NCBI GenBank assembly: GCA_902809985.1
Contig: CADDXC010000001.1
Span: 2,356,001 to 2,420,000, forward strand
Origin: Clostridiaceae bacterium BL-3
GTDB taxonomy: Bacteria > Bacillota > Clostridia > Clostridiales > Clostridiaceae
Reading direction: 5' to 3'
DNA: 64,000 bases
Shown: positions 8,894-39,867 of the stretch, one piece after another
Numbering within the stretch: position 1 is the first letter of the stretch
How the letters are laid out: the number at the start of each line of letters is the position of its first letter
Position numbers and translations under genes: made by a program
Notes under the pieces: generated by a model
Seen by the model: the letters and a program-made list of their open reading frames with translations, nothing else
What the model was told of the DNA's origin: nothing
Database searches by the model: none

Positions 8894-8913
8894 AGTAGTA
8901 CATCCCCATATTT

Positions 8914-11562: not shown

Positions 11563-11589
11563 TAAATCTCCTCCTCCTATAGTTCTGAA

Positions 11590-11846: not shown

Positions 11847-11851
11847 TTTCT

Positions 11852-11879: not shown

Positions 11880-11988
11880 GAAATTTTACACATTCAGCAA
11901 TTAGAAAAAAACAAGATTGCTTTTTTATAAATTTTATTGTATTTTACAGTTATAAAGTAGGTAATTATATATGGAAGGAGATATAAAA

Positions 11989-12306: not shown

Positions 12307-12425
12307 TGTATATTTGTATGCCCTTGGACACAAAAATATTTAAAATCACAGAATTCAATTTAAAATATTTTTAGAGCTGGCTCCCCCCCCCCTTTACAGT
12401 GGGTTGACCCAACTCTACATCATGC

Positions 12426-13445
12426 CTATTTAACGGCTTTTTCCGCAAAAGAATTATTCACTATTTTGTCAAAAGGAGGTCTTTCAGGTATCAAATCTGA
12501 TTTATATGATTGTATTACATCCATAAGTCTATTTAAATCCTGTTCTTTTATAATCGGAGTATCAGCATAGGCCTTTATATTCCTGTAGTTTTTTATTACA
12601 GATTTTAGTACATCCTCATCAGTTCCCGGGAAGAAGGATTTTATAGCCTCAGCTACTTCCTCATCACTGTGTTTTTGAACCCATATCTGCCCTTTATGAA
12701 TGGCATTTGTAAATTTCTGTATTAACTCAGGATTCTTCGATATATAAGACTTAGTGGCAAAATAACAAGTATAAGGCAGTACACCAGCAGATTCACCTAC
12801 AGAAGCCTGTATATAACCATTTTTATCCTTTTCCAGCATACTGGCAGTGGGTTCAAAAAGAGCCACATAATCTCCTGTATTGGCTTTAAATGCACCTGCT
12901 GTTGCAGTATAAGCCAAATTAGTTATTAAATTTACATCTTTTCCGGGCTGTATATTATTTTTTTTAAGTACATATTCTAAAGCCATTTCTGGAACTCCAC
13001 CAGGTCTTCCGCCAATTATGGTCTTTCCCTTAACGGATTCCCATTTAAAATTCTTCTGCTCACTCCTACCCACTAAGAAGGATCCATCCGTAGCAGTCAA
13101 TTGAGCAAATAATACAGGAAAATCCTTTCGCTTTTGATTATATATATAAATTACCTGCTCTGGTCCGCAAAAGCCTATATCACAGCTGCCGCTTAATACC
13201 TGCTGCATTGTCTTATCTGCTCCCTGACCTGTAGTAAGATCTATATTTATACCCTGTTCTTTAAACATTCCCTTGTTTATCGCCACATACATTGGTGCAT
13301 AAAATGCAGATCTTGCCACTTCATTCAACTTTATATTAACTACGGAATTAGCACCTTTTTTGCTATTTCCACAAGCTGCAAAAATGGTAACTATAAAAAT
13401 AAAGCACAATAGAACAGAATAGAGCCCTAATTTTTTTCTTATCAT
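12426..13445 (-). CDS. NMT1/SsuA-type ABC transporter substrate-binding lipoprotein
   Basis: 339-residue binding lipoprotein with a signal peptide and lipobox Cys25 (IFAAC). The NMT1/THI5-like fold is seen in NEVARSAFYAPMYVAINKGMFKEQGINIDL (about residues 40-70), GSCDIGFCGPEQVI, and GKTIIGGRPGGVPEMALEYVL. Such proteins bind nitrate, sulfonates, pyrimidine thiamine precursors or other small molecules; the ligand is not evident here. GGAGGATAT precedes the ATG at 13445. It follows the giant activase gene in the same direction (about 77 bases away). The matching ATPase and permease lie beyond the activase in the opposite direction, at 18137-19698. Confidence 0.88.
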   Translation of the reverse strand: MIRKKLGLYSVLLCFIFIVTIFAACGNSKKGANSVVNIKLNEVARSAFYAPMYVAINKGMFKEQGINIDLTTGQGADKTMQQVLSGSCDIGFCGPEQVIYIYNQKRKDFPVLFAQLTATDGSFLVGRSEQKNFKWESVKGKTIIGGRPGGVPEMALEYVLKKNNIQPGKDVNLITNLAYTATAGAFKANTGDYVALFEPTASMLEKDKNGYIQASVGESAGVLPYTCYFATKSYISKNPELIQKFTNAIHKGQIWVQKHSDEEVAEAIKSFFPGTDEDVLKSVIKNYRNIKAYADTPIIKEQDLNRLMDVIQSYKSDLIPERPPFDKIVNNSFAEKAVK

Positions 13446-13522
13446 ATATCCTCCAAAAAGCAATTTTAATATCTATTCATAATATGAGTATAATGTAAAT
13501 TGTGTTAAAGCCTTTTGGATTT

Positions 13523-16500
13523 TCATTTATTTCCATCCTCTACAAGCACTGCCTGGGGAACCAGTTTATTTTTACGGCTCTCCACTGCGACTTCACTTTC
13601 CATGGATTTAAATGCCACTGACAACATGAGCTTTAACCTGTTTAACTGATTTACCTCACTTGCACCTGGATCATAATCTATAGTTGCAATATTGCTTCCT
13701 GGATACCTTCTTTTTAGTTCCTTTATCATTCCCTTGCCTGTTACATGATTAGGCAGGCAGGCAAAAGGCTGCATACACACAATATTTTTTACTCCGCTTT
13801 TTATAAGTTCTATCATTTCAGCTGTCAAAAACCAACCCTCTCCTGTCTGATTTCCAATGGACAATATTTGTGAAGCATCTTTTGCCAGCTGTTCAATATT
13901 AGATGGTGGAGCAAACCTTTTGCTGTTTTTCAGTGCATCTCTCATATATCGTCTAAAATATTCAATAAATTTTATTGCCCCTTCATTTATAATTGTACTT
14001 AAATAGCTTCCAGACAAATATCTGTGCTTGAATTTAGCATCATAAGCACTGTACAATAAGAAATCCGTCAAATCAGGGACTACTGCTTCGACTCCCTCTT
14101 CTTCCAATGTATCCACAATTCTATTATTGGCAGTTGGATGAAATTTAACCAATATTTCTCCCACTACTCCTACTCTTGGTTTCCGTATATCGGTCACTTC
14201 CAGATTGTCAAAATCATCTACTATATCGTAAATATTTTCTTTAAATTCTCTGTGAACACCGTTGGCAACATTTCTCTTGCATTTTTCAATCCATCTTTTA
14301 TAGAGTAAATTTGCAGATCCCGGTATTTTTTCATAAGGTCTCACCCTATACAGTACTCTCATAAATAAATCCCCATATAAAAGCGCTATCATGGATTTAT
14401 TTATAAGTTTCGGTGTGATTTTAAATCCAGGATTTTTCTCCATTCCAACTACATTCACAGATATTACAGGTATATTTTTCATTCCAGCTTCTTTTAATGC
14501 CTTTCTCAAAAAGCCTATATAGTTGGTTGCCCTGCACCCCCCACCTGTCTGGGACATCACTACAGAAGTATTATTCAAATCATATTTGCCAGATTTTAAT
14601 GCCTCTATCAACTGTCCTACCACTATTATGGAAGGATAACATGCATCGTTATTTACATATTTCAGTCCCTCGTCAACAGCTTTTTTATCAACAGAAGGCA
14701 GTACTTCCAAATTATAACCTGAATTTCTAAATGCTTCCTGCAAAAATTGAAAATGTATAGGCGACATTTGTGGACATAATATAGTATGATTCTTTCTCAT
14801 CTCTTTAGTAAACATCACTTTTTTATAATTGTCCTCAACCCTATGTGGCTTAAAGCCTGCCTTTTCTCGTTCTTCAAGAGCTGCTTTCAAGGAACGTATC
14901 CTTATTTTAACTGCTCCAAGATTACTTCCCTCATCAATTTTCAGTACCGTATATATTTTCTCATATTTATTGAGTATTTCCTGAGTTTGATCCGTAGTAA
15001 CTGCATCCAATCCACATCCAAAAGAATTCAATTGAACGAGCTCCAAATTATCCTGGGTATTTACAAAACTTGCTGCAGCATACAACCTGGAATGGTAAAC
15101 CCATTGATCTACCACACGAAGCGGCCTCTCCACAATGCCAAGGTGAGCTACTGAATCTTCAGTAAATACTGCCATACCATAGGATGTAATTATATTGGGA
15201 ATCCCGTGATTTATCTCCGGATCAACATGGTAAGGTCTTCCAGCCAGCACTATTCCCTTTCTTCCAGTTTTTTTAAGATATTCCAGTACTTCCTCTCCCT
15301 TTGCCCTTATATCCCTTTTCATTCTTTTATCTTCTTCAAAGGCTTTGTCTACAGCATCGAATATCTCCTTTTCAGGAATGTGAAATTCCTTAAGTTCTTC
15401 TACAAGTCTTTTCTTGAGTCTCTCCTTATTGTTCAGTGGTAAAAATGGATTTTTAAAATTAATATGTCTTTCTCTGATTATATCCATATTATTTTTTATA
15501 ACTTCAGGATAGGAAGTTACCATTGGACAATTATAACTATTATTGGCCTCTTTTTGCTCCTTCTGCTCATATGGTATACAAGGGTAGAATATAAAATTTA
15601 TTCCCCTCTGTATCAGATTCATTATGTGGCCGTGAACTATCTTGGCAGGATAGCAGGCAGATTCCGAAGGTATAGTTTCTATACCAAGTTCATAAATGCG
15701 TTTTGAGGAACGGGCTGACAATTCCACTCTAAACCCCAGCTGAGTAAAAAAAGTAAACCAGAATGGATAGTTTTCATATATGTTCAAAACCCTAGGTATA
15801 CCTACCTGTCCTCTATTTGCCTCATCTTTTTTGAGAGGTATATAATTAAATATTCTCTTGTATTTATAGTCATAGAGATTCGGTATATCTAAGGTTTTCC
15901 TCTCAAGACCTGCACCCCTTTCACATCTGTTTCCAGATATAAATTCTTTTCCATCTGAAAATTTATTTACAGTCAACAGACAATTATTAGCGCATTTCCC
16001 GCATCTTCTCATTGTAATTTCCGTTGAAAATCTATCCAGCTCAGCTGAGTTTAACAGTGACGTCTCATGCTCCGGTTCAAATCTTTCCCTGGAAATAATA
16101 GCAGCTCCAAATGCCCCCATAAGGCCTGCTATATCCGGTCTTATCACTTCTCGCCCGGATATGATTTCAAAAGCTCTCAATATGGCATCATTATAGAATG
16201 TGCCGCCCTGGACTATTATCTTTCTACCTAGTTTCTCAGGATCTCTTATCTTTATTACCTTAAATAATGCGTTTTTTATAACCGAATAGGAAAGTCCTGC
16301 TGAAATATCTCCTACAGAGGCTCCCTCTTTTTGGGCTTGCTTAACCCTTGAGTTCATAAAAACAGTACACCTGGAACCCAAATCCACGGGCTTTTTAGAA
16401 GTTTCTGCAGACTTAGCAAAATCTTTTACACTCATATTTAAAGACTTGGCAAAAGTCTCTATAAAGGAACCACACCCGGAAGAGCAGGCTTCGTTCAACA

Positions 16501-17818
16501 TTATTTTATCGATTACTCCATCCTTCACTTTAAGGCATTTCATATCCTGTCCGCCAATATCCAATATAAAATCCACCCCAGGCTGAAAGAACTCTGCTGC
16601 TTTATAGTGGGCAATAGTTTCAACTTCACCTATATCTACAGATAAAGCTGCCTTTACAAGTCCTTCCCCATATCCTGTAACTGTTGAATTTACTATTTTA
16701 GCACCTTCCGGTAATTTTTTATATAAATCTTTCAATATATCCACTGTAGATTTCAAGGGATTACCTCTATTACTTCCATAAGAAGAATACAGCAAATTTC
16801 CATACCCATCAATTAGAGCTGCCTTAGTGGTTGTAGAGCCTACATCTATCCCCAGATAACAGTTTCCACTAAATCCTTCCAAACTTCCTCTCTTCACCGA
16901 ATTCCTGCTGTGCCTTTCTCTAAATTCTTTTAATTCATTTTCATCTTTAAAAAGAGGCCTTAATGTTTGTATATCCTCACCCGAAGACTTATTTAAATTT
17001 GGAAGTCTATCTATTAAATTTTTGAAAGAAATAGGTTTTTCATTTTTAGATGAAATCGCAGCACCAAGTGCTACAAATAATTGAGAATTCTCTGGGAAAA
17101 ACACTTGTTTATCTGTAAGTTTTAAAGTTTTTATAAATCTTTTTCTAAGTTCAGATAAAAAATATAGGGGTCCACCCAGGAATGCTACATTACCCCGTAT
17201 AGATTTTCCACAAGCAAGTCCGCTTATAGTTTGATTTACCACCGACTGAAACACAGATACTGCAATATCTGACTTATCAGCCCCTTCATTTAAAAGTGGT
17301 TGTATATCGGTTTTTGCAAATACACCGCATCTGGCCGCTATAGGATAAATCACCTTATAATTTTTAGCCAGCTCATTTAAACCCTTAGCATCTGTTTGAA
17401 GCAGCGATGCCATTTGATCTATAAATGCTCCGGTTCCTCCTGCACAGGTTCCATTCATTCTCTGATCAATTCCGCCCTCAAAGAAGGTTATTTTAGCATC
17501 TTCCCCTCCTAATTCTATTGCAACATCAGTATCTGGAATAAATCTTTCTATAGTATTAGTGCAAGCTACAACCTCCTGTATAAAGGGTATATTAAGCCAT
17601 TTAGATACAGACATTCCTCCAGAGCCTGTGACCATTACAGTGATATCTGAATCCTTTAGCTTTACATAGGCATCTTTAATAATTTTAGCTATAGTATTTT
17701 TTATATCAGAAAAATGTCTTTGATATTTTTGATAGATTATACTGTCTTTTATATCCGATACTACTATCTTTACTGTAGTTGAACCTATATCAAGACCTAC
17801 GTGAAATAAATTTTTCAT
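13523..17818 (-). CDS. Giant 2-hydroxyacyl-CoA dehydratase activase-like protein (two BadF/HgdC domains plus DUF2229)
   Basis: 1431-residue cytoplasmic protein. Two ASKHA ATPase domains of the BadF/BadG/HgdC family sit in tandem: about 5-257 ([23 protein letters not shown]) and about 320-577 ([22 protein letters not shown]). Each has the Cys pair that holds the bridging [4Fe-4S] cluster in HgdC, 39 residues apart: NGTC125/ARC164 and NEAC445/SRC484. A Cys cluster ([12 protein letters not shown]; about 606-632) and a DUF2229/HgdB-like part with further Cys ([46 protein letters not shown]) make up the rest. HgdC-type ATPases deliver low-potential electrons to radical dehydratases or double-cubane proteins; here donor and acceptor may be fused. 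The substrate is unknown. AAAGGTG supports ATG at 17818 over TTG at 17824. Confidence 0.88.
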
Positions 17819-17887
17819 AATCAATCACCTTTTAAAATTAATAATTTAGACTAATTTTATAGACTTTAAAACAACATATTATCTATA

Positions 17888-27929: not shown

Positions 27930-28775
27930 ATGAAAAATATAAAAGATATTTTTTTCATGTTGATTGGAACATTTCTTGTAGCTTTCGGTACCTATTTCTT
28001 TTTAGCTCCAAATCACATTGCCGCCGGTGGCACAAGCGGTATTGCCATAATTATAAACACATTGTTTCCAAATCTTCCTATTGGTCTGTTGATGATGGGA
28101 ATGGAAGTTATATTATTCACTTTAGGAATTATAATAATTGGCCCTATATTCGGCGGGAAAACCGTATTCTGCAGCTTCTCCATATCTGCACTGATATTTT
28201 TCTTAGAAAAAATATATCCACATATAAAGCCATTTAGCAGTGATATTCTAGTTCAGCTTATATTTGGCATATTGATATGTGGAATGGGCATGGGTATAAT
28301 ATTTAATCTAGGCGCTTCAACTGGAGGTACGGATATAATCGCAAAAATAATAAACAAATATACAAAAATAAGCATAGGCAAATCCGTGTTGATAGCTGAT
28401 ATAACCGTAACTATAGCTGCAACTATAGTACTCGGGGTAAACAAAGGTCTTTATGCCATACTGGGGGTAATATTAAATTCTACAATAATAGACAGGGTTA
28501 TAGTAAGTCTAAATTCCTATAAGCAGGTTGCTATAATAAGTAATCACGGGAGGAATATACAAAATTTTATTATAAAGGAACTTGAGAGAAGCGCCACCAT
28601 CTATTATGCCAAAGGCGCCTATAAAGATGATAAAAAGGAAGTCATAATTACCATTTTAAATAGAAAACAATTTTTAAAATTGAAAAATTATATAAGACTT
28701 TTAGATAATAAAGCTTTCATCACTGTAAATGACATAAATGAGGTATTAGGAGAAGGATTTAGCAATATAGTGTAG
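27930..28775 (+). CDS. YitT family membrane protein
   Basis: 281 residues. The N-terminal half has five or six membrane helices (DUF161 type) with the conserved start FGTYFFLAPNHIAAGGTSGIAII and the later GASTGGTDIIAKII. The C-terminal cytoplasmic domain (about 200-281; DUF2179 type) ends in DNKAFITVNDINEVLGEGF, a signature of the family. A transport role is presumed but the substrate is unknown. GGAGGGAGG with suitable spacing supports ATG at 27930; the open frame to 27870 overlaps the leader terminator. A long hairpin overlaps the stop codon. Confidence 0.9.
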   Translation: MKNIKDIFFMLIGTFLVAFGTYFFLAPNHIAAGGTSGIAIIINTLFPNLPIGLLMMGMEVILFTLGIIIIGPIFGGKTVFCSFSISALIFFLEKIYPHIKPFSSDILVQLIFGILICGMGMGIIFNLGASTGGTDIIAKIINKYTKISIGKSVLIADITVTIAATIVLGVNKGLYAILGVILNSTIIDRVIVSLNSYKQVAIISNHGRNIQNFIIKELERSATIYYAKGAYKDDKKEVIITILNRKQFLKLKNYIRLLDNKAFITVNDINEVLGEGFSNIV

Positions 28776-28820
28776 AAGATATCCGAAAGGTAACTAGATT
28801 ACTTTTCGGGTATCTTCTAC
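28772..28820. terminator. Long hairpin between converging YitT and DUF917 genes
   Basis: Arms 28772-28793 and 28799-28820 match at about 20 of 22 positions. The left arm includes the YitT stop. There is no good T run on either side, so it may protect 3' ends or terminate with help. Confidence 0.65.
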
Positions 28821-28823
28821 ATA

Positions 28824-29939
28824 TTAATCTGGTGACAATATATCTTCCACTTTTTTGTAAGGTACGTGATATCCAAAAAACTCAGGTCCAAAAATTTCAA
28901 GTCCCCTTTTACTTCTCCATTGCTCAAAAGCCTTTAGAGAAAACACCGTAACTTCCATACCCACTTTTGCATAGGGATTCAAAAGTGGCATATTTTTATC
29001 ATTGTCCACTACATTTATTGAATCTGGAACCGTTACAAACACTTTTCCATTTTTCCAGGAAATTATATTTTCATTTTGAAACCAAATTCTTAAGTTTTGA
29101 TTTTGATATTTTCCATTACCTTCAATATATATATTTCCAAAAGTAAATCCGGATTTATCTTCCCAACAAACCTTACTGACTTTTCCTTGAAACATGATGA
29201 ATCCATCAAATTTTTCCACAATATCATAGGCAAAGTTTATATTTTTATTCCTAGCGATTCTGGCGATTTTGCCTACTTCCAGGCACATTGTAACAGTATT
29301 TTTGATAAGGGTATTTTTAATTACCTTCCATCTTGCAACATGATCTACCACCCCAACATGATTAAAGCTAGCAACAGCCGCTGCCCTGGCAAGGGCTTCT
29401 GCTCTTTCGTCACTTTCAACTTCTGTAAATATCATGGAATCTCCAAGCTTGTCTGCTACACCCATTGGAGTTATAGGTATCCCCTTTAAATTATAAGTTG
29501 AGTGTTGAAGGCAGGGAACACTTCTTCCCGCAGGATCCGCATCTATTATGGGCTTTCCGGTTCTAGCTGCCACATCCAGTGCAGATGCCATATTGCCGCC
29601 GCCGAGCTCCGTTGTAACTACTCCATATAAGTCCTCTCCCAAATATTCTTCTATTGCATTGACAGCAGCCATTTCTGCAGTATATTTTATTTTGTACATA
29701 TTTTTATATTTTTCTACCTGATCCTCAGAAAGAGGGCTTATAGAACCACATCCATATGGAGTTCCTACCAGGGCCTCATCTTCTATTTCACTTAAACCTG
29801 CGAGATAAAATTGATATCCTTCATTAAAAGAACCTTCTACCAATTTTATTCCATTTTCAAGACTTCCTCCTCCACCTGTGCCAACTATTGCAGCTCCAAG
29901 CAATATATCTCTCAAGTCCTGCATACTCAGCCTCTTCAT
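28824..29939 (-). CDS. DUF917 family protein (second copy, end of operon)
   Basis: 371 residues of the DUF917 family, which Pfam has renamed after S-methyl thiohydantoin desulfurase. The Gly-rich N-terminal motif is VGTGGGGSLENGIKL (about 19-33). The central block is ELGGGNMASALDVAARTGKPIIDADPAGRSVP (in pieces, about 105-135). The C-terminal domain has FGNIYIEGNGKYQNQ, NENIISWKNGKVFVTVPDSI and a final EIFGPEFFGYHVPY. It parallels the copy at 36586-37683 throughout but is clearly diverged, so the two may form a heteromer or act on successive substrates. GGAGGAAGGTGG precedes the ATG. It is the last gene of an operon with an ABC importer. Confidence 0.88.
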   Translation of the reverse strand: MKRLSMQDLRDILLGAAIVGTGGGGSLENGIKLVEGSFNEGYQFYLAGLSEIEDEALVGTPYGCGSISPLSEDQVEKYKNMYKIKYTAEMAAVNAIEEYLGEDLYGVVTTELGGGNMASALDVAARTGKPIIDADPAGRSVPCLQHSTYNLKGIPITPMGVADKLGDSMIFTEVESDERAEALARAAAVASFNHVGVVDHVARWKVIKNTLIKNTVTMCLEVGKIARIARNKNINFAYDIVEKFDGFIMFQGKVSKVCWEDKSGFTFGNIYIEGNGKYQNQNLRIWFQNENIISWKNGKVFVTVPDSINVVDNDKNMPLLNPYAKVGMEVTVFSLKAFEQWRSKRGLEIFGPEFFGYHVPYKKVEDILSPD

Positions 29940-29963
29940 AATTAAAGTCCACCTTCCTCCATA

Positions 29964-31007
29964 TCATTTTTTAAATATTTCATCTACATATTTAACAAGA
30001 TCAGGATGTATAATCCTACCATTGTCCATTATTTTTACGTTATCCACCCATATAGAAGAATTAAGACATATTCCATCACAATGGGATACAGCATTTTGTC
30101 CAAAAGGAGGCGCCTCACTTTTGCTCACATATCCTATTCCCCATTCAACAGCACCCCAGACCCTCTCGTCCTCTACTATATTCCCGGTAAGCATTGCTCC
30201 TGGTCCAAATCCATACGCTATATGGGCAAGCTTATACATACTGGGATCCTTCAATGATTTCAGCCATTCCTTAAATTCATCAGCTTGATGACCCCCTTCT
30301 ATCTTAACGATGGTACTGTTCTCAATTTTCATCCTTATGGGTTCTTTTAAAAGCCCGCAAGGCGGAACAAGAGATCCGTCAAACACCAGCACACCGTTTA
30401 TTGTGCCAAATCTAGGAATCACGTTTATCTGCCCCGGCATCATGAACATTCCAGGCTCATAAGCTTCTCCAGCATCACAAGCTACTACATGTGTGGGATC
30501 TAGTTGAAATTCAAGGTGAGTTCCAAGAGGCGTTTCAGCTGTCATAGCTGCGGCAGATCTATTCATCTCTGCTACTTTTCTCAAAAACTTCGCAAGTACT
30601 CTTATATTCACTTTTCCTATATTTCTTATCATAATATCCGGATTCATTCCCACAAGATTTATATATCTTAATTTTTTGTTGTTTTTAAATGCCACCTCAA
30701 AGGGTGTAGAATACAAAAGCCATTTCTCATTATATTCTATCCACACATCTGCTTTTGACAGTGCAGCTCCAAGAGCTTCAACTGGAAGCTTTGGATCTGC
30801 TGCCTTTCCAACTCCATCCGGAGTTGCAGTCCATATGACCATAGGCTTTCCCTTTACACTATATATGCTTGAAGCTGTGGTATTTACAACAGTTTCATTT
30901 GAAGAAGTATCTGCTGTTATCAAAACAGTTTCTCCTTCCTTGACTTTGAGTATTTCATTGACCAATTTATCTGCTGCCTTTTGTAATTCAAACTCGTATA
31001 ATTTCAT
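29964..31007 (-). CDS. M29 aminopeptidase / 2,5-dihydroxypyridine dioxygenase-like metalloenzyme
   Basis: 347 residues. The protein resembles the family shared by M29 leucyl aminopeptidases and NicX-type 2,5-dihydroxypyridine 5,6-dioxygenases. Residues 1-140 form the N-terminal domain (MKLYEFELQKAADKLV). The C-terminal domain holds His262 (LAHIAYGFGPGA), Glu288 and the His309-x-Asp311 motif (SHCDG). From family knowledge, NicX binds Fe(II) through two His and one Asp with a similar layout, so the site is likely metal-binding. Whether it cleaves peptides or opens a ring cannot be decided here. GGAGGGTGTGATCTG precedes the ATG at 31007; a longer frame upstream lacks such a site. It sits between the importer and DUF917 genes. 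Confidence 0.8.
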   Translation of the reverse strand: MKLYEFELQKAADKLVNEILKVKEGETVLITADTSSNETVVNTTASSIYSVKGKPMVIWTATPDGVGKAADPKLPVEALGAALSKADVWIEYNEKWLLYSTPFEVAFKNNKKLRYINLVGMNPDIMIRNIGKVNIRVLAKFLRKVAEMNRSAAAMTAETPLGTHLEFQLDPTHVVACDAGEAYEPGMFMMPGQINVIPRFGTINGVLVFDGSLVPPCGLLKEPIRMKIENSTIVKIEGGHQADEFKEWLKSLKDPSMYKLAHIAYGFGPGAMLTGNIVEDERVWGAVEWGIGYVSKSEAPPFGQNAVSHCDGICLNSSIWVDNVKIMDNGRIIHPDLVKYVDEIFKK

Positions 31008-31065
31008 CAGATCACACCCTCCATATAAAATTTTAACCATTATGTTTTCTAACATCATAAATTTG

Positions 31066-32046
31066 TCACTGCCGAATCATATGACACCCTACCCTTCTCC
31101 CATCCTCCAACATAATCAATTCAGGCTCTTCAATACTGCATATACCCTTTGCATAGATACATCTAGTATGAAACCTGCATCCTTTTGGGGGATTTATTGA
31201 GCTTGGCACATTTCCCTTTAAAGTAACCATATCTTCTATATTTTCCATATTTATATCCGGTATAGCAGCAAACAGAGCCTGGGTATATGGATGCATTGGA
31301 TGGTTGAACACAGTATCTGAATCCCCGTATTCAACAATTTTACCAAGATACATTATCGCAATCCTATCGGCCATATAGCTTACAACACTTAAATCATGAG
31401 ATATTATTATATAAGTTAAATTGAACTTTTTTTTAAGCCTTTCCAACAATTCCAAAATTTGGGCCTGGGAAAATACATCTATAGATGATGTTGGTTCATC
31501 GAGAACAATGAGTTTTGGCATAAGTGCCAATGCCCTAGCTATCGCAATACGCTGTCTTTGACCTCCACTAAATTCATGAGGATATTTATAAGCACCATCT
31601 TTTGGAAGTCCAACCATTTCAAGAAGTTTTTCGACTCTTTTCATAATTTCAAAGTTATTTATTTTCTCCTGAACTTTAAGTGGTTCTCCCACGATATCTT
31701 TCACCAACATTCTAGGGTTCAAAGACCAAAAAGGATCCTGAAATACAATTTGTATGTACTTTCTTATACTTCTCAATTCCTTTTTACCCAGACTAAATAA
31801 ATCTTTCCCGTCAAAAATAACTCTTCCAAAAGTCGGCGTTATCAAATCTAAAATAGTATTTACCAAAGTTGATTTTCCGCAGCCTGATTCTCCCACAAGC
31901 CCAAGAGTTTCTCCCTTTTTCACATCAAAAGATACATCATCAACGGCTTTTAAATAGGATTTAGTTTTAGAAAAAAGACCCTTTTTACCAATTTCAAAGT
32001 ACTTTTTTAAATTTCTTACCTCTAATAATTTTTCATTCATCATCAT
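31066..32046 (-). CDS. Oligopeptide/dipeptide-type ABC transporter ATPase (DppF-like)
   Basis: 326-residue ATPase with Walker A GESGCGKST (about 51-59), Q-loop FQDPFWSLNPRM, signature SGGQRQRIA, Walker B LIVLDEPTSSID and switch His in ISHDLSV. The C-terminal oligopeptide-transporter extension carries the Cys motif CRFHTRCIYAKGIC, which in this family can bind an iron-sulfur cluster. The start overlaps the end of the preceding DppD-like gene by 14 bases, with AAAGGAGATA before it. It works with the DppD-like ATPase as a heterodimer in the importer of this operon. Confidence 0.93.
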   Translation of the reverse strand: MMMNEKLLEVRNLKKYFEIGKKGLFSKTKSYLKAVDDVSFDVKKGETLGLVGESGCGKSTLVNTILDLITPTFGRVIFDGKDLFSLGKKELRSIRKYIQIVFQDPFWSLNPRMLVKDIVGEPLKVQEKINNFEIMKRVEKLLEMVGLPKDGAYKYPHEFSGGQRQRIAIARALALMPKLIVLDEPTSSIDVFSQAQILELLERLKKKFNLTYIIISHDLSVVSYMADRIAIMYLGKIVEYGDSDTVFNHPMHPYTQALFAAIPDINMENIEDMVTLKGNVPSSINPPKGCRFHTRCIYAKGICSIEEPELIMLEDGRRVGCHMIRQ

Positions 32047-33022
32047 TATCTCCTTTGTATAGACAGCATTTTACAAAGTGATTTTCCCCAAGTTGTAATA
32101 ATTCTTGCTTTTTTCTGCACTTGTCCTGTCTTTTCAAACATCGGTCATAATATAAGCATCCTTTTCTATCATCTCCAGCATTTCCTTCTGTAAATACCAA
32201 TTTGTTTAAATCTATTTCATTTTTTCTATTCTTCGGTACGGCATTTAAAAGCATCTGCGTATAGGGATGTTTGGCATTTTTTAATACTTCTCTAGTTTTT
32301 CCCCTTTCAACTATTTCTCCTCTGTATAATATTGCAGTATCATCACAAGTTGCAGAAACAAGTCCAGGATTATTTGCTATAAAAAGCACTGTTACTTTTA
32401 GATTTTTTTGTAGTTCACGAATAAGTTTCAAAATACCTGCCTGTATTGTTACATCCAGGTTTCTCGTGGGTTCATCCGCGATGATAAATTGTGCTCCGCA
32501 GCTTAGCGCAAGTGCAATTATAACTCTTTGCCTCTGACCTCCACTTAATTCATGAGGATATTTTTTCATTATATTTTCAGCATCAGGGAGTTTAACAGTA
32601 TTGATCATCTCCACCGCTTTTGAATATGCATCTCTTTTATTTAAATTTTGATTTTCCATTATTACTTTTATTATCTGATCTCCAATGTTAAAAACCGGAT
32701 TTAAAGTAGACATCGGATCCTGAAATATCATGGATATTTTTTTACCTCTTATTTCACTCTGCATACGCTTCTGACTCATATTTAAGAGATTTTCTCCCTC
32801 CAAAGATATCTCTCCTCTCACCACTCTGCCAGGAGGCATTTGAAGGAGTTTCAGAATAGATAATGCTAGTACTGTTTTCCCTGTTCCGCTTTCTCCTATT
32901 ATTCCATATGACTTCCCTCTATCTATTCTAATTTCATCTATATTGAGTACAGTCTTTTCTCCCTCAAAACTCTTAAAATTAATTTTAAGATCTTTTATAT
33001 GAAAATACACTTTACTGCTCAT
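32033..33022 (-). CDS. Oligopeptide/dipeptide-type ABC transporter ATPase (DppD-like)
   Basis: 329 residues. Walker A is GESGTGKTV (about 38-46), with FQDPMSTLNPVF, signature SGGQRQRVI and Walker B FIIADEPTRNLD; the His switch position is replaced (IANNPGL instead of ITHDLGL). The C-terminal Cys motif is CLYYDRCLKRQDKC followed by CCLYKG. GTGAGGTGGTTAT precedes the ATG. The missing switch His suggests that this subunit contributes an impaired ATP site, as in asymmetric ABC pairs; the partner DppF-like protein keeps its His. Confidence 0.92.
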   Translation of the reverse strand: MSSKVYFHIKDLKINFKSFEGEKTVLNIDEIRIDRGKSYGIIGESGTGKTVLALSILKLLQMPPGRVVRGEISLEGENLLNMSQKRMQSEIRGKKISMIFQDPMSTLNPVFNIGDQIIKVIMENQNLNKRDAYSKAVEMINTVKLPDAENIMKKYPHELSGGQRQRVIIALALSCGAQFIIADEPTRNLDVTIQAGILKLIRELQKNLKVTVLFIANNPGLVSATCDDTAILYRGEIVERGKTREVLKNAKHPYTQMLLNAVPKNRKNEIDLNKLVFTEGNAGDDRKGCLYYDRCLKRQDKCRKKQELLQLGENHFVKCCLYKGDNDDE

Positions 33023-33038
33023 ATAACCACCTCACTTA

Positions 33039-33929
33039 TCAGTTTTTTCTAGTTTTAGGATCAAGTATCTCTCTAAGTCCATCACCCAACAGATTGAATA
33101 TGAGAACTGTAATAAATATGGCCAATCCAGGGAATATACTATACCACCAGGAATCCAAAAAATAATCTCTGCTTGTACTGACCATCAATCCCCATTCAGG
33201 AATGGGAGGCTGCGCACCCAGTCCTAAAAAACTCAAAGAGGCTATAGTCAAAATAACTCCTCCTATATCCATAGAAGCTTGAACTATTATAGGTGCTATA
33301 CAATTGGGGATTATATGGCTTAAAATAATAGTATGAGGCGAAGCTCCTATAGCTTTCGCCGCCTTTACAAATTGCCTCTCTTTTATAGACACTGCCTGAC
33401 CTCTCATTATTCTCGTATACCATGGCCACCATGACAACGCTATGGCAATCATAGCATTTTGAAGATTAGGTCCTAAAAATGCGGCAATAGCTATAGCAAG
33501 CAGCAAAGGTGGAAATCCTAAAAATATATCTGTAAATCTCATTATCAATTCATCTACAAATCCCCCAAAAAATCCGGCTACAGCACCTAATGGTATTCCT
33601 ATAACAAGAGCCATCCCAACAGCCAAAAGAGCCGTTTTTAAGGAGATATTTGCACCTGCAATTATTCTTATAAATACATCTCTTCCAAGTTCATCTGTTC
33701 CAAAAATATGTTTTAGAGAAGGTGCCATCAATTTGTCCTGGGGAACTGCATTTTGAGCAATAATTTGAATAGACGGTACAAATATAGGAAGTATAAATGC
33801 AATGACAAGAAGAATTAAAACTCCATAATAGGCAATTCTGGTAAGTTTATTTCTTTTAAGTAAATAAACATTAACCCTTAATTTTTTGATTTTAGGTTTT
33901 ATTGTTTTAGATAACTGCATACTATTCAT
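33039..33929 (-). CDS. Dipeptide-type ABC transporter permease (DppC-like)
   Basis: 296-residue membrane permease with six helices. The N-terminal segment before the first helix is followed by KLMAPSLKHIFGTDELGRDVFIRII, the DppC hallmark. The EAA loop AAKAIGASPHTIILSHIIPNCIAPI (about 190-215) contacts the ATPase. It ends in the typical GLREILDPK. GGGAGGATGGCAGAAG precedes the ATG. It pairs with the DppB-like permease encoded 15 bases upstream. Confidence 0.93.
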   Translation of the reverse strand: MNSMQLSKTIKPKIKKLRVNVYLLKRNKLTRIAYYGVLILLVIAFILPIFVPSIQIIAQNAVPQDKLMAPSLKHIFGTDELGRDVFIRIIAGANISLKTALLAVGMALVIGIPLGAVAGFFGGFVDELIMRFTDIFLGFPPLLLAIAIAAFLGPNLQNAMIAIALSWWPWYTRIMRGQAVSIKERQFVKAAKAIGASPHTIILSHIIPNCIAPIIVQASMDIGGVILTIASLSFLGLGAQPPIPEWGLMVSTSRDYFLDSWWYSIFPGLAIFITVLIFNLLGDGLREILDPKTRKN

Positions 33930-33944
33930 CTTCTGCCATCCTCC

Positions 33945-34955
33945 CTATACTCTGACTCGTGGATCGAATGAAATTATTATATCTGCTATAAGGTTCAATA
34001 GTATATATGCACAGGCTGAAAACAGTGTGACCCCCATAATTGCGGGATAATCCAGTGATACAACAGCTGTGGATATATAATTTCCTATACCTGGCCAGCT
34101 AAAAATAGCTTCTACTAAAAATGTGTTGGTAAGTGTATATCCTATAGACAAAGCCAATACTGTAACTGTAGTTCCCATTGAATTTTTTAGGGCATATCTC
34201 CATATGATAAACCTCTCCTTAATTCCATAGGATCTTGCTGCTTTTATATAATCTTCCTCCAATATTTCCAAAAGGGAAGATCTCGTCATTCTCGCTACAA
34301 GCCCCATGGGATAAAGTGCTATAGTTACCGCCGGTAGAATAATATGCTTGGCAGCATTTAAAAATACAGGTATTTGGCCTGACAACAAACTGTCTAAAAG
34401 CAATAATCCCGTATTATGAGGCACATTATACAAGATGTTCATTTTTGTATCCAATTGCCCACCTAAAGGCAAAATCCCCAATTTTCTATAAAATATCAAT
34501 TGTAAAAACAATGCCACCCAGAAGGTAGGTAGAGATACAGCCCCTACGGAGAAAAATCTACAGAAATGATCAAGTGCATGATCTTTTTTCCTTGCAGAAT
34601 TCAAGCCAAGCGGTATTCCAATCAAAACTGCCATTATCGTAGACCAAAATACAAGTTCAATCGTAGGAGGCAAATAAGTTTCCAGCTCTTTTAAAACAGG
34701 TTGCTTAGTCCTAAGCGATGTTCCTAGATTACCATGGAACAGATCCACTACGTATTTTTCAAATTGAACATATATGGGTTTATCTAAACCCAATTCAATT
34801 CTTGCTTTCTGTATCTGCGCAGGCGTAGCTCTTGAACCTGCCCACTGTGCAGCTGGATTTGAAGGTATCACCCTAGTTAGAAAAAAGGTTATGAGAATTA
34901 CTCCAAATAATACCACCACTCCAAGTAAAATTCTTTTTAATATATAACTTTTCAA
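33945..34955 (-). CDS. Dipeptide-type ABC transporter permease (DppB-like)
   Basis: 336 residues. The start MKSYILKRILLGVVVLFGV and the VIPSNPAAQWAGSRATP block are typical of DppB, as are ARIELGLDKPIYVQF and the EAA loop AARSYGIKERFIIWRYALKNSM. Six helices are predicted. Translation starts at a TTG with AGGAGGTGAAGAT just before it. It is the first transmembrane component after the binding-protein gene. Confidence 0.93.
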   Translation of the reverse strand: MKSYILKRILLGVVVLFGVILITFFLTRVIPSNPAAQWAGSRATPAQIQKARIELGLDKPIYVQFEKYVVDLFHGNLGTSLRTKQPVLKELETYLPPTIELVFWSTIMAVLIGIPLGLNSARKKDHALDHFCRFFSVGAVSLPTFWVALFLQLIFYRKLGILPLGGQLDTKMNILYNVPHNTGLLLLDSLLSGQIPVFLNAAKHIILPAVTIALYPMGLVARMTRSSLLEILEEDYIKAARSYGIKERFIIWRYALKNSMGTTVTVLALSIGYTLTNTFLVEAIFSWPGIGNYISTAVVSLDYPAIMGVTLFSACAYILLNLIADIIISFDPRVRV

Positions 34956-34985
34956 ATCTTCACCTCCTAGTTATCCTTGGATAAA

Positions 34986-36560
34986 CTATTTTCTATAGCA
35001 GTCATAGAAAAACACTACTAGAGGATAAGCAGAATTTGCTTTAAATCCTCCTAAAGAAGAATTAGTTATCCATGCATCTTCTTTGTCGTAGATAAATACA
35101 GCTGGATTATCTTTAAGAAGAATTTTCTGTGCGTCTATAAATTTATTTTCTGCTTCTTCAATATTGGTGCTTGACATCTTATATCCATCATCAACCAATT
35201 GATCATACTGGCTATTTGAATAATAAGCTAAATTATACAGAGGATTTTTTTCACTGTGAAATAGATTATAGGCCCATGAATACGGACTTGAAATATCAGG
35301 CCACCAATACATCATGAGTATATCCTGTCTGCTCTGTATATCCGTACCTTTGGCTTGCTGCCATTGACTTTCCCAAGGCATAGCCCTTACCTCCAAGTTC
35401 ACTCCAATTTTTGAAAGTTCACTTTTATACAGCTCTGCTGTTTTCTTTTCAGATTCATCTCCACTCATATAAGTAAGTGAAAGCTTCAACTGCCCTTCAT
35501 TTATTCCAGCTTCTTTCAATAGAGATTTTGCTTTATCCAAGTTTAAGGAATACTTTGTCAAGCTGTCACCATGCCCCCACATTCCAACCGGTATAACTCC
35601 TGTAGATTGCTTTGCTAATCCTCCTGCCGCATACTTAACTGCATTTTCATATGGGAATGCATAAGTTAATGCCTCCCTGACTTTTTCATTATCCAGGGGT
35701 GCTTTCTTAGTATTAAAAAATGCTACTAAATTTGTAAATGAAGGCTCTATATCAACTTTTACATTTTGTGAGGATTTAAGAGCTTTTACATCTTCTGCAG
35801 GAAGATTGTTTGTTATATCAGCATCACCCTTTTCCACCATCTGCCTTCTAGATGAGGTCTCAGAAGTTTTCTTTATTACAGCTTTAGAAAAATGCTTTCC
35901 ATTCCATCCTTTCCAATAGTCATTGAATTTAGAAAGTACCACTTCATCTCCCATTTTATTGCTGGAAAGCTTGTATGGTCCCGTCCCATCTTCATTGCCC
36001 TGTTCCAGCCAATTATCAGGTTTATCTTTAACCTTAGGTGAAATTATAAAAGCTGCATAAGGACAACTTGCTATCATGTCAAGTGGAGCTGCATAATTTA
36101 AGGTAAATTGAACAGTATAATCATCTATAGCCTTTATTTCTTTCACAGGAGCCCATATATAAGAAGCACCCACTTCTTTTTTCTGAGTTCTCTCTATAGA
36201 ATATTTAACAGCATCTGCAGTCATTGTAGTTCCATCGTGAAATTTTACACCCTTTCTCAATTTAAAGGTCCATACAAGTCCGTCTGAGCTTTTTTTATAA
36301 CTTGTTGCAAGTACATAATCGTATTTTTTAGTTGTAGGATTAAATCTGAGAAGTGTTTCGTAGACATTGTTTAACACAATAACTCCATTGGAAAATTCAA
36401 CACTTGGATCCCAATTGAGTATCGGCTCACTATTATAGGCATAATAGGCAACATCATTTCCATCACTACTGCCACCACTATCACTGCTGCTTCCGCCGCA
36501 TCCAGTAAACAATGACAAGATCATCATAAATACAGCTAAAAAACAAATTTTATTTTTCAT
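34986..36560 (-). CDS. Dipeptide-type ABC transporter substrate-binding lipoprotein
   Basis: 524-residue family-5 binding lipoprotein with lipobox Cys21 (LFTGC) and a Gly/Ser linker. Family segments include WTFKLRKGVKFHDGTTMTADAV (in pieces, about 92-113), NEDGTGPYKL and VREALTYAFPYENAV. It delivers the ligand to the DppBCDF-like importer. Family-5 proteins bind peptides but also nickel, opines, sugars and other small molecules; nothing in the sequence fixes the ligand. The unusual catabolic neighbours argue for a non-peptide or modified amino-acid ligand. AAGGGGGCATTATCTT precedes the ATG. Confidence 0.92.
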   Translation of the reverse strand: MKNKICFLAVFMMILSLFTGCGGSSSDSGGSSDGNDVAYYAYNSEPILNWDPSVEFSNGVIVLNNVYETLLRFNPTTKKYDYVLATSYKKSSDGLVWTFKLRKGVKFHDGTTMTADAVKYSIERTQKKEVGASYIWAPVKEIKAIDDYTVQFTLNYAAPLDMIASCPYAAFIISPKVKDKPDNWLEQGNEDGTGPYKLSSNKMGDEVVLSKFNDYWKGWNGKHFSKAVIKKTSETSSRRQMVEKGDADITNNLPAEDVKALKSSQNVKVDIEPSFTNLVAFFNTKKAPLDNEKVREALTYAFPYENAVKYAAGGLAKQSTGVIPVGMWGHGDSLTKYSLNLDKAKSLLKEAGINEGQLKLSLTYMSGDESEKKTAELYKSELSKIGVNLEVRAMPWESQWQQAKGTDIQSRQDILMMYWWPDISSPYSWAYNLFHSEKNPLYNLAYYSNSQYDQLVDDGYKMSSTNIEEAENKFIDAQKILLKDNPAVFIYDKEDAWITNSSLGGFKANSAYPLVVFFYDCYRK

Positions 36561-36585
36561 AAGATAATGCCCCCTTATATCAAAA

Positions 36586-37683
36586 TTATTTTGAAGCCAC
36601 TTTTTTTTCTATAGGTACATAGTCCACATCAAATCCAAAAAATCTGGGATTTAGAAGTGAGATCCCCTCTTTGCTCCTCCATATCCCATGTGATTTAAAC
36701 CCCAAAACAGCTATTTGGTCACCCTCCCTGCAATTAGGATTTGTTATTGGATAACCTTTTTCAGCATCTAAAACACATATAAGATCTGGACAAGTAATAA
36801 ATATTTCATTATTTTTCCAGGAAATCATATTTTCATTTTTATACCATATCTTAAATTTTTCACCCCGGAATTGATTTTGTCCTCCTATAGATATCGTCCC
36901 TATTGTAAACCCATCTTTTATTTGAAATGTAGTTCCCTTTTCCACTTTTCCCTTAAAAAGCATATACCCTCCAGTATTTTTAATTATATTCTCTATTGGA
37001 TCAACACCATTTTCTTCTGCTTCTCTTCTGGCCCTGCCAACTTTTTCAGCATAGCTCAGAGCATGCGGAACTACAGATCTTTTAAGTTCCATCCCATTTA
37101 TAGGATGATCTGCCATTCCAACTTCGTTATCCGTAACCTCAGCCATAACCCTGGACAATGCTTCAGCTCTCTCATCTCCATGAACTTTGGTGACAATTAT
37201 AGAATCTCCATATTTAGTTGCAATAGCAAAAGGACTTATAGGTTTGCTCTTAATGCAATATGTGGAAAATTGAAGCTCAGGTACTGCTCTCCCGGCTGCA
37301 TCACAATCAACTATACATTTATTCATAATTGCAGCGGTTGCCATAGCTTGTCCTGTGTTACCCCCTCCATATTCTATAGAAACTATACCTTCAAATTCTA
37401 TTCCCATATAATCTTCAAGTTTTTTCACTGCACGGATAGTTTCCATATTGTTTTTTTCACTATTCATTTCATCTTTCGGTTTAACTGAACCACAGTAATA
37501 AGGATTTACGTAATAAGAATCATCTCTAATTTCTTCAAACGCTAAAAGTTTAAATTCTCTTCCTTCATCAAATGTCCTTTTTACAGTTTTAATTCCTTTA
37601 TCTAAATCTCCACCACCTCCAGTACTTAAAATCGTGCATCCAATCAGTATATCCTCTACTTCTTGATATAACAATTTTCGCAT
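36586..37683 (-). CDS. DUF917 family protein (first copy, head of operon)
   Basis: 365 residues. The N-terminal motif is LSTGGGGDLDKGIKTV (about 18-33). The central block reads IEYGGGNTGQAMATAAI and DCDAAGRAVPELQFSTY, parallel to the second copy at 28824-29939. The C-terminal part has DGFTIGTISIGGQNQFRG, NENMISWKNNEIFITCPDLICVLD and LLNPRFFGFDVDYVP. GGAGGAGTTTTA precedes the ATG at 37683; the open frame extends 13 codons further without a site. It is the first gene of the operon, divergent from the PucR regulator, and so probably its direct target. Confidence 0.88.
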   Translation of the reverse strand: MRKLLYQEVEDILIGCTILSTGGGGDLDKGIKTVKRTFDEGREFKLLAFEEIRDDSYYVNPYYCGSVKPKDEMNSEKNNMETIRAVKKLEDYMGIEFEGIVSIEYGGGNTGQAMATAAIMNKCIVDCDAAGRAVPELQFSTYCIKSKPISPFAIATKYGDSIIVTKVHGDERAEALSRVMAEVTDNEVGMADHPINGMELKRSVVPHALSYAEKVGRARREAEENGVDPIENIIKNTGGYMLFKGKVEKGTTFQIKDGFTIGTISIGGQNQFRGEKFKIWYKNENMISWKNNEIFITCPDLICVLDAEKGYPITNPNCREGDQIAVLGFKSHGIWRSKEGISLLNPRFFGFDVDYVPIEKKVASK

Positions 37684-37957
37684 TAAAACTCCTCCAATAT
37701 TAACAATTCGATAAATATACAACTATTTTATTGATATTTATTTACATAATTATATAACTAATTATGATATAATTTATTATAATTATTACAAATATCCATT
37801 TATTTTTTTTAGTTTTCTATAATTGATTTGGAAATTACATATCAATTCTGGAAACTGCATTATAATATTGTATAATAATGCAAATATTTTTTACATTGTA
37901 TATAAACTTTCAAAAAGTTCAGGAGCAAAAACCCTGTAAGACATAGGAGGGAGATAA

Positions 37958-39109
37958 ATGGCAATCCAAATTAAAGACTTGCTATCATTGAATTTATTTA
38001 AAAGTGCTGTCATTGTATCCGGCAAAAATGGTATTTCAAATGAAATAAAAAGAGTTAATTTCGCAGATTGTCCTATTGTAGATGATATCTATGATAAAAA
38101 TCTTGTAAAACAAGGTGATATATTCATAAGTAGTTTATATATAGTTAAAAATAGTACGGATAAAATGTTCAAACTTATTGATTTTTGTATAAAAAGCGAA
38201 AGTTGCGGTATGTTTGTAATAAACGAATATATAAAGAAACTGCCAGACAAAATCATAGAATTGTCTAATAGAAATAATTTCCCCATAATATTAATCGATG
38301 CTGACATACCTTATGCAGAAATAATAAAAACTGTAACGGAAATGATCTTTCTCGAGCAATCTAACGTAATATCAGAGATGAGATTAGAAAAACTTTTAAA
38401 TAAAAATATAACTACAAATGAAGTGATCTATTTAGCTAAGCTTTTAAATAGTAATTTCAAAAAAAATTATGCATCTATATATATAAATACAGATAATTTT
38501 ACTCCTGGCAAAAATCACCTCATTAAGACTAATTTAAAAAATTTGACTAGATGTGAACTTTTAAGATATAAGAAAGGTTCTATACTCATTGTAAATTTTA
38601 ATATCATAAGCGAATTCATTTCAACCGTTAACTATATAAAAAATTTGGTTGATTCTTATAAAGATACCTATTATATTGGTATAAGTAATTCTTTTTCCAA
38701 TATTAAGGATTTTAATTTATGCATAAAGCAATGCATATCTTCATTTGAAATAGCAAAAATAATTGACGGTAATGTAGTTTATTACAAAGATTTAAATGTT
38801 TATAAAATCTTGTATCCACTAATAGATACCATATATCTCAATGATTTTTACAATGAAATTTTTATTCCAATAAAAAAATATGACGATTACTACAATGCTG
38901 ATCTGATAAAAACCATAAACACTTATTTTAAAAATGACGGTGATTACAAGAAAACCTCTTTAAAACTTCATCAACATGAAAATACAATAAGATATAGAAT
39001 TCTAAAGGCCAAAAAAATACTAAACCTTGAACACAACCATATAAAATTCATCGAACAAATGTCAATAGCCTTAAAAATAAATAAACTAAAAAATAATAAA
39101 AAATACTAA
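37958..39109 (+). CDS. PucR-family transcriptional regulator
   Basis: 383 residues. The N-terminal PucR domain (about 5-125: IKDLLSLNLFKSAVIVSG, then DIYDKNLVKQGDIFISSLY) is followed by a middle GGDEF-like region and a C-terminal helix-turn-helix (about 335-370: YKKTSLKLHQHENTIRYRI) of the PucR/CdaR class. Such regulators activate purine, amino-acid or other catabolic genes in response to a metabolite. GGAGGGAGATAA precedes the ATG. It is divergent from the DUF917-importer operon across 274 AT-rich bases containing several short AT dyads, and likely controls it. Confidence 0.88.
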   Translation: MAIQIKDLLSLNLFKSAVIVSGKNGISNEIKRVNFADCPIVDDIYDKNLVKQGDIFISSLYIVKNSTDKMFKLIDFCIKSESCGMFVINEYIKKLPDKIIELSNRNNFPIILIDADIPYAEIIKTVTEMIFLEQSNVISEMRLEKLLNKNITTNEVIYLAKLLNSNFKKNYASIYINTDNFTPGKNHLIKTNLKNLTRCELLRYKKGSILIVNFNIISEFISTVNYIKNLVDSYKDTYYIGISNSFSNIKDFNLCIKQCISSFEIAKIIDGNVVYYKDLNVYKILYPLIDTIYLNDFYNEIFIPIKKYDDYYNADLIKTINTYFKNDGDYKKTSLKLHQHENTIRYRILKAKKILNLEHNHIKFIEQMSIALKINKLKNNKKY

Positions 39110-39222
39110 CCAAATATAGATTTCAAATTTTTTTACTCAAAATCAATTTATTTTATATATTTTAGAATATTAACCAAAGTTATTGGCTATAATTTAAGAC
39201 AGTATTGAAGGGGGATATGCAT

Positions 39223-39867
39223 ATGAAATTACCAAATCACATAGGTATAATTCCAGATGGAAACAGACGATGGGCTGTAAAAAATAAATTGAGTAAAGAA
39301 AAAGGTTATGTTTTTGGTCTAACCCCTGGTATGAAATTATTTAAACTATGCGAAAGATTAGGAATAAAAGAATTAACCTATTACGGTTTTACTACAGATA
39401 ATACCAAAAGACCATTGATTCAGAGAAAGGCTTTTACTGAAGCATGTGTAGAAGCTGTAAAAATGCTTTCTAAAGAGGATGTTTCCCTACTGGTAGTGGG
39501 AAATACCGATTCTAATATGTTTCCAAAAGCTCTTCTACCCTATACCATTAGAAAAAATTTAGGCAGCGGTGGAATGAAACTTAATTTTCTGGTAAATTAC
39601 GGGTGGGAATGGGATTTGGGAAAAACACAACATTCCCGAACTACAAATAGACATTCCATTATTTCATCTCTAAATTCCCATGATATATCAAGAGTGGATC
39701 TGATAATACGATGGGGCGGCAGAAGGAGACTCAGCGGTTTTCTTCCTGTTCAATCAGTATATTCAGATTTTTATATAATAGATGATTATTGGCCGGATTT
39801 CAAAGCCGAGCATCTTATAAAAGCCCTAAAATGGTATAATAATCAAGATATAACCTTAGGAGGATAA
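39223..39867 (+). CDS. Divergent cis-prenyltransferase (undecaprenyl diphosphate synthase family)
   Basis: 214 residues, shorter than normal UppS (about 240-250). The catalytic-Asp motif is present as GIIPDGNRRWA (usual MDGNGRWA), and the C-terminal block DLIIRWGGRRRLSGF plus YWPDF matches DLLIRTGGExRLSNF and WPDF. Other motifs deviate: the usual His of the GH motif is Tyr (KGYVFGL), FSTENW is FTTDNT, and NYGGR is NYGWEW. It should be soluble or membrane-peripheral and condense isoprenyl diphosphates, but product length is unclear. It is probably a paralogue of the housekeeping enzyme. GAAGGGGGATATGCAT favours ATG at 39223; ATG at 39217 is possible. A TATAAT lies at 39188-39193. Confidence 0.82.
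   Translation: MKLPNHIGIIPDGNRRWAVKNKLSKEKGYVFGLTPGMKLFKLCERLGIKELTYYGFTTDNTKRPLIQRKAFTEACVEAVKMLSKEDVSLLVVGNTDSNMFPKALLPYTIRKNLGSGGMKLNFLVNYGWEWDLGKTQHSRTTNRHSIISSLNSHDISRVDLIIRWGGRRRLSGFLPVQSVYSDFYIIDDYWPDFKAEHLIKALKWYNNQDITLGG

Follow-up and report, generated by a model that had tools for sequence, protein, structure and literature searches.

The closest described relatives of the locus reported here are gene clusters built around cyclodipeptide oxidases (CDOs), whose two subunits belong to the families PF00881 and PF19585 and whose genes, according to PMC11055893, are surrounded by genes for DUF917 proteins, hydantoin racemases, AroM, Dpp and OPT transporters, and peptidases. That paper proposes a role of these clusters in purine metabolism or secondary-metabolite biosynthesis and states that experimental characterization of the DUF917 and AroM proteins is lacking; NCBIfam now names two DUF917 desulfurase subfamilies. 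Here we describe a nine-gene locus in a 64,000-nucleotide stretch of the Clostridiaceae bacterium BL-3 genome (contig CADDXC010000001.1, positions 2,356,001 to 2,420,000; hereafter the window), in which an eight-gene operon encoding two DUF917 proteins, a Dpp-type importer and a metalloenzyme resembling the dioxygenase NicX lies divergent from a pucR-type regulatory gene. Most likely, this operon serves to take up a small amide, cyclic or modified, and to degrade it non-oxidatively. No description of the operon was found in the literature on DUF917, thiohydantoins, CDOs and hydantoins, and DUF1177, as far as the partial coverage of these sources extends.

The eight minus-strand open reading frames (ORFs) and the plus-strand pucR gene are all intact (Table 1), as located in a preliminary description made from the letters of the window, and Pfam searches confirmed its DUF917, binding-protein, permease, ATPase and PucR calls. 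The ORFs as called are separated along the operon by 25, 30, 15, 16, −14, 7 and 24 bp, with 30 bp being the largest gap, and the trimmed starts of the DUF917a and NicX-like genes are probably to be preferred on their ribosome-binding sites. A family 5 solute-binding protein (SBP), two permeases and two ATPases with oligo_HPY domains, all in a single operon, identify a Dpp/Opp ATP-binding cassette (ABC) importer. Both the N-terminal PucR domain (76.7 bits) and the C-terminal HTH_30 domain (46.5 bits) of the regulator score above cut-off, and both S-Me-THD domains (PF06032 and PF20906) exceed their cut-off of 27 in DUF917b (131 and 185.9 bits) and in DUF917a (144.1 and 189.3 bits). Scans for sigma-70 promoters and terminators gave results near chance level.

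The NicX-like alignment was scanned against one genome per GTDB species, yielding 24 loci (numbered with L), which come from clostridial and Tissierellia-like genomes as well as from archaea and further bacterial phyla. This search for the same gene order in other genomes, which the preliminary description had proposed, found the order conserved in five of the 24 loci: contiguous and identical, with a divergent pucR, in a Tissierellales metagenome-assembled genome (MAG; L021) and a Sedimentibacter MAG (L022), near-identical in Dethiosulfatibacter aminovorans DSM 17477 (L020), where one racemase gene is inserted between dppF and the NicX-like gene, and lacking DUF917a alone in L023 and L026. 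Such conservation is not due to chance. Identity to the window in these five loci ranges from 45–58% for PucR (first copy), whose gene is divergent in all of them, up to 71–78% for DppB and DppC; across six related loci it is 48–67% for the SBP, 66–78% for DppB and 67–75% for DppC, and both dppD and dppF of L020 were recovered by tblastn. The NicX-like subfamily is rare. In the class, 8 of 391 genomes have a match at E ≤ 1e-60, and in the phylum 15 of 398 do, with the BL-3 genome counted in both. A locus from a different family of the same taxonomic order (L016) has the transporter, the NicX-like gene and one DUF917 gene, alongside genes for a DUF1177::AroM fusion and for an M20 peptidase; the fusion, a single ORF, and a 594-aa ORF spanning DppD and DppF were noted at L016:1666-5069. 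At L023:2529-21036 the PucR-SBP-DppBCDF unit occurs in two tandem copies with a nitroreductase-like gene between them, copy one being accompanied by the NicX-like and DUF917b genes and copy two by a DUF917b gene cut by the locus end.

Gene neighbourhoods were compared over 50 loci with a NicX-like gene, window included, covering up to ~13 kb per side in the relatives (less at contig ends) and the ORFs starting at 19000–49000 in the window. Seven genomes contribute two loci each; L082 and L095 (contigs of L025 and L037), the own-genome loci L014 and L015, and L042 and L096 (no NicX ORF called, though searches matched there) were left out of the count. Near the NicX-like gene, DUF917 was found at 32 loci, a Dpp permease at 28, both at 24, PucR at 30, a racemase or AroM at 23, an M20 peptidase at 12, a CDO-like subunit at 10, DUF1177 at 8, an OPT transporter at 6 and hydantoinase A at 2. 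Together with the conserved order, these neighbourhoods bear out the earlier view of one PucR-linked unit of import and enzymes. In four loci of one family (L081, L083, L084 and L085), a PucR-SBP-DppBCDF-NicX-DUF917 run is headed by two genes, one for a nitroreductase and one small and DUF6092-like; the L083 pair and the L015 pair match PF00881 and PF19585, and the small L083 protein also matched AlbB weakly (E 0.041). Because a CDO-like pair heads such related runs, the window operon falls in a broader group of clusters, some of it already described. The pairing of CDOA (nitroreductase) with CDOB (PF19585) was not found in the window, whose ORFs lack the CDOB motif, and the genome's only DUF6092 match sits outside the operon, at another locus. 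Nitroreductases encoded just downstream in L020, L022 and L023 were considered as fused CDOs and rejected: none of the ORFs at these three loci showed the CDOB motif, and the L022 enzyme, the only one of the three searched, was nearest to NfrA-type reductases in the PDB.

Several neighbouring clusters were observed in their own right. The earlier statement that no hydantoinase is present holds for the operon and fails for the genome, in which one hydantoinase-A gene lies at another DUF917 locus. Locus L015 (C1:1188001-1206000, 6950-12592) comprises a nucleobase-type permease, a racemase, the CDO-like nitroreductase and DUF6092 pair, DUF917 and hydantoinase A. A protein of ~274-284 aa recurs in racemase/OPT/DUF917 clusters (L091:12946-13797 and L104:18877-19701, with similar-start ORFs in L086, L089, L092 and L103); the two members tested had no Pfam match at E 1e-4. 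At L107:12442-19996, the neighbours of an OPT/DUF917/NicX/CDO-like cluster are 2Fe-2S, dihydroorotate-dehydrogenase-like, carbamoyltransferase, M20 and amidohydrolase genes, which recall gene sets for purine or hydantoin breakdown.

The metalloenzyme, labelled M29/NicX-like in the preliminary description, retained the second half of its name and lost the first. NicX was its sole PDB match at E ≤ 0.001 in a single-sequence search (E 1e-8) and was matched by profile at E 6.7e-25, with the fold covering the full length, whereas no Pfam family matched above cut-off and M29 (PF02073) reached 16.3 bits against a cut-off of 27 (E 0.0045). Three of the four NicX Fe ligands (His265, Ser302, His318 and Asp320) are present in the window protein as H279, H326 and D328, residues being numbered (as for Q210 and E305) in the 364-aa ORF before start trimming. 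The Ser302 place aligns, in a gapped stretch, near Y310, which is Ser in 16 of 56 NicX-like relatives, and NicX His105 aligns with Y116, a place held by Tyr in 43 and His in 13 of the 56. Within the subfamily (n=56) W106 and E108 are invariant, and the places of Q210, H279 and E305 carry Gln in 55, His in 56 and Glu in 54 proteins, respectively. The 11 M29-like neighbours examined all carry E/E/H/H/D at the five places where the window protein has Q210/H279/E305/H326/D328, and we take these places to be the metal ligands of solved M29 enzymes. The protein combines the fold of NicX with conserved residues that set it apart. These features make unlikely an explanation in which an ordinary di- or oligopeptide importer would feed linear peptides to an aminopeptidase-like enzyme and the DUF917 proteins would be side activities: the M29 score is below cut-off, the E, E and H of the M29-like proteins are replaced almost throughout the subfamily, and the recurring DUF917, racemase and CDO-like neighbours would be unneeded for linear peptides.

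The two DUF917 proteins represent two distinct subfamilies, DUF917b falling in a six-row clade (support 100/100) separate from that of DUF917a. The polar, putatively catalytic residues E117/E111, D139/D133, R145/R139, E297/E290 and D313/D306 (DUF917a/b) are invariant in 39 of 39 compared proteins. The only NCBIfam models matched by either protein are the thiohydantoin desulfurases NF058529 and NF058532, at 59.1 and 46.1 bits for DUF917b and 94.3 and 81.3 bits for DUF917a against cut-offs of 440 and 450 bits, whereas the DUF917 paralogue of the same genome at L014 scores 305 bits and its clade is separated from the window proteins by a branch of length 2.4 (support 100/100). A thiohydantoin desulfurase identity of DUF917a and DUF917b was rejected on the missed curated scores and on this closer paralogue, and the thiohydantoin chemistry previously suggested for them was not upheld. 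The L014 cluster (C1:1744001-1764000, 7960-15761) comprises PucR, an OPT transporter, DUF917, DUF1177, AroM, an M29-like protein and an Asp/Glu racemase; it fits the thiohydantoin lead better than the window operon because its DUF917 protein reaches that score. In a structure comparison of the DUF917a model, no PDB chain besides 2o3i stood out, which does not establish a unique fold. DUF917 genes are sparse: 118 genomes of the class, that of BL-3 among them, gave 23 matches over cut-off.

Within its genus the locus is present or absent with a recognizable empty site. The NicX-like alignment gave no match at E ≤ 1e-40 in 12 congeners (numbered with G). Two genes flank the locus, a yitT-like one next to the operon on the left and a short uppS-like one next to pucR on the right; they are 10.4 kb apart in the window and adjoin at 86–168 bp in seven of the 12 congeners (G001, G003, G005, G006, G007, G009 and G012). 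Of the remaining five, three gave no yitT match at E ≤ 1e-60 (G004, G010 and G011), one has the yitT gene on another contig (G002) and one has it far off (G008). Homology to G007 stops near 28825 and restarts near 39146, whereas on the left it already ends at 28771 in G009 and 28761 in G005, 54–64 bp before that of G007, restarting at 39145 and 39149, respectively. An inverted repeat resembling the hairpin at the operon end is visible by eye at the G007 empty site, and a search for terminal repeats found no common word of ≥8 bases between 28741-28860 and 39061-39230. The G+C content is 36.1% in the operon and 32.6% elsewhere in the window, and the nearest rows of its NicX-like, DUF917a and DUF917b proteins are from Tissierellales, Sedimentibacter and Dethiosulfatibacter. 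The nine genes were apparently acquired horizontally, a gain being preferred because it is more economical than many losses. The uppS-like gene (39205-39867, 220 aa) was found in all 13 of the genomes searched in the genus, and a similar-looking gene lies near the L025 NicX-like gene.

Table 1. Features of the operon, its regulator and its borders in the window.
Feature	Position	Strand	Remarks
DUF917a, S-Me-THD N and C domains	36586..37683	-	operon gene 1; start shifted to ATG 37683 from TTG 37722, GGAGG upstream
Family 5 solute-binding lipoprotein (SBP)	34986..36560	-	SBP_bac_5 PF00496 E 7.8e-88; lipobox LFTGC seen by eye
DppB-type permease	33945..34955	-	TTG start; PF00528 (BPD_transp_1) and PF19300
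DppC-type permease	33039..33929	-	PF00528 (BPD_transp_1)
DppD-type ATPase	32033..33022	-	PF00005 (ABC_tran) and PF08352 (oligo_HPY)
DppF-type ATPase	31066..32046	-	14-bp overlap with dppD; PF00005 (ABC_tran) and PF08352 (oligo_HPY)
NicX-like metalloenzyme	29964..31007	-	start shifted to ATG 31007 from 31058, GGAGGG upstream
DUF917b	28824..29939	-	last operon gene; PF06032 E 5.2e-38, PF20906 E 6.4e-55
PucR-type regulator	37958..39109	+	divergent from operon; PucR PF07905 E 2.3e-21, HTH_30 PF13556 E 3.1e-12
Weak candidate operator TTTGTAATAATTATAAT	37776..37792	-	2 mismatches to TTTGTA-N5-TACAAA; equalled by 33/500 shuffles
Terminator-like hairpin	28771..28824	.	between operon end and yitT-like gene; computed fold, -25.1 kcal/mol
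Extra segment relative to congeners	~28826..39145	.	contains the operon and pucR plus short flanking DNA; left border only approximate, within 28762-28826

A palindrome, TTTGTA-N5-TACAAA, occurs upstream of related operons; it was first spotted by eye in the L020-L026 intergenic regions and tested afterwards, against shuffles drawn by first-order Markov sampling and not by exact dinucleotide shuffling. Within the 21-row NicX clade to which the window belongs, 11 of 18 operons are preceded by the palindrome with at most one mismatch; outside that clade, 0 of 13 are. Of the 11 rows that played no part in spotting it, six have it at this stringency (L016, L081, L083, L090, L091 and L094), L090 and L091 being of one genus with an identical site and hence not independent, and five do not (L084, L085, L089 with only 47 bp, L092 and L099). 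Locus L016 has the palindrome though no pucR was called within its 20 kb. A plain k-mer search for a common operator in seven intergenic regions gave nothing clearly beyond shuffles, and the related pattern TTTGTA-N5-TAYAAA at ≤1 mismatch showed no clear enrichment over the whole window (8 against 4.4 expected, reached by 12 of 100 shuffles). The palindrome is probably the binding site of the linked regulator.

Taken together, the locus reads, at about an even chance, as a horizontally gained cassette that is controlled by PucR and scavenges a small compound derived from peptides. Racemases and CDO-like genes recur nearby, and hydantoinase A is near in 2 of the 50 loci; this agrees with the preliminary description, which supposed that the substrate is a small amino-acid compound, cyclic or modified. 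The lipoprotein SBP and DppBCDF would import a hydantoin-like or cyclic-dipeptide-like amide that resists ordinary peptidases; DUF917a and DUF917b, acting either jointly or one after the other, would attack the ring; and the NicX-like protein, acting as an O2-independent mononuclear metal enzyme with predicted ligands His279, His326, Asp328 and perhaps Glu305, would open or hydrolyse the amide so produced. The released amino acids would be fermented, and PucR would sense the compound or its product and switch on the divergent operon. More tentatively, the NicX-like subfamily could form a new class of O2-independent metallohydrolases or ring-opening lyases, reusing the two-His-one-carboxylate site of NicX with His and Glu swapped relative to M29, and with a two-component DUF917 (a and b) ring hydrolase it might be the core of a widespread, undescribed route for recovering cyclic dipeptide or hydantoin-like amides in amino-acid-fermenting anaerobes and archaea.

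Several points weigh against this interpretation. DUF917 was not seen at 18 of the 50 loci in the stretch examined, some of which is cut by contig ends; hydantoinase A is confined to the two loci already mentioned; the window operon itself contains neither a racemase nor a CDO gene; and the neighbourhood argument is one of association only. A NicX-type site may exist in part of the subfamily, given the Ser at place 310 in 16 of 56 proteins, and loss in the congeners may have occurred instead of acquisition. The window operator is borderline, those of L021 and L085 also have two mismatches (L085 being equalled by 8 of 500 shuffles), and in L084 no operator was found, 469 of 500 shuffles being equally good. 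Substrate, metal content and O2 independence are all predictions from sequence.

Purine or allantoin catabolism under PucR is an improbable alternative. It would accord with the family name of the regulator, with the purine metabolism suggested for CDO-type clusters in PMC11055893, and with the dihydroorotate-dehydrogenase-like, carbamoyltransferase and amidohydrolase genes next to the L107 cluster, but the importer is of the Dpp type and not a nucleobase permease, no purine ring enzyme was recognized in the operon by Pfam, and L107 is one of 50 loci. Degradation of thiohydantoin or S-methyl-thiohydantoin (ergothioneine-type) by DUF917a and DUF917b, suggested by their Pfam families and sole NCBIfam matches, is very improbable given best scores of 59 and 94 bits and the separate clade of the higher-scoring L014 paralogue. 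Catabolism of a hydroxylated, pyridine-like N-heteroaromatic by a true NicX-type ring-cleaving dioxygenase would explain the closest structure and the aligned two His and one Asp, yet it too has very little probability, with no pyridine hydroxylase gene in the operon, Tyr at the Ser302 and His105 places of the window protein, and several hosts that we take to be anaerobes or peptide-fermenting archaea.

Uptake and non-oxidative breakdown of a cyclic or modified amide remains our preferred role; since the importer is within the operon, catabolism would fit better than the proposals in PMC11055893. Genes for DUF917, AroM, racemases and CDOB recur together in anaerobes and archaea with their steps largely unassigned, and the window operon is a compact version of such clusters, in which three enzymes are combined with a dedicated importer and regulator. 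Should the NicX-like enzyme prove independent of O2, it would be an example of an oxygenase scaffold performing non-oxidative chemistry. Because a named strain, D. aminovorans DSM 17477, has a near-identical layout, the substrate should be approachable by ligand screening. Elsewhere in the window, a 1433-aa ORF (13523-17824) near ABC transporter genes has a start that resembles, by eye, an acyl-CoA dehydratase activase.

Compared with known systems, the crocagin biosynthesis proteins CgnE and CgnB (PDB 6zsu and 6zsv) align over 254–261 residues at 13–14% identity, and no crocagin-type genes were recognized in the operon by Pfam. The thiohydantoin and S-methyl thiohydantoin desulfurases (NF058529, NF058532) share their Pfam families with the window DUF917 proteins over the full length, but the latter score 46–94 bits against the cut-offs of 440 and 450. 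From the M29 aminopeptidases (AmpT, PepS and AmpS) the window metalloenzyme, sub-cut-off in Pfam M29, differs in having Q, H and E at three places where the M29-like neighbours have E, E and H. From NicX, the 2,5-dihydroxypyridine dioxygenase of Pseudomonas putida (PDB 7cn3; PMC7910607), the window protein differs in lacking equivalents of Ser302 and His105, and its operon in lacking an aromatic hydroxylase. With the non-CDPS CDO clusters, as PMC11055893 presents them, the window operon has in common DUF917, Dpp transport and a peptidase-fold enzyme, a CDO-like subunit occurring in 10 of the 50 related loci; it lacks CDO, racemase and AroM genes and encodes DUF917 proteins of two types, a NicX-like enzyme and a PucR regulator of its own.

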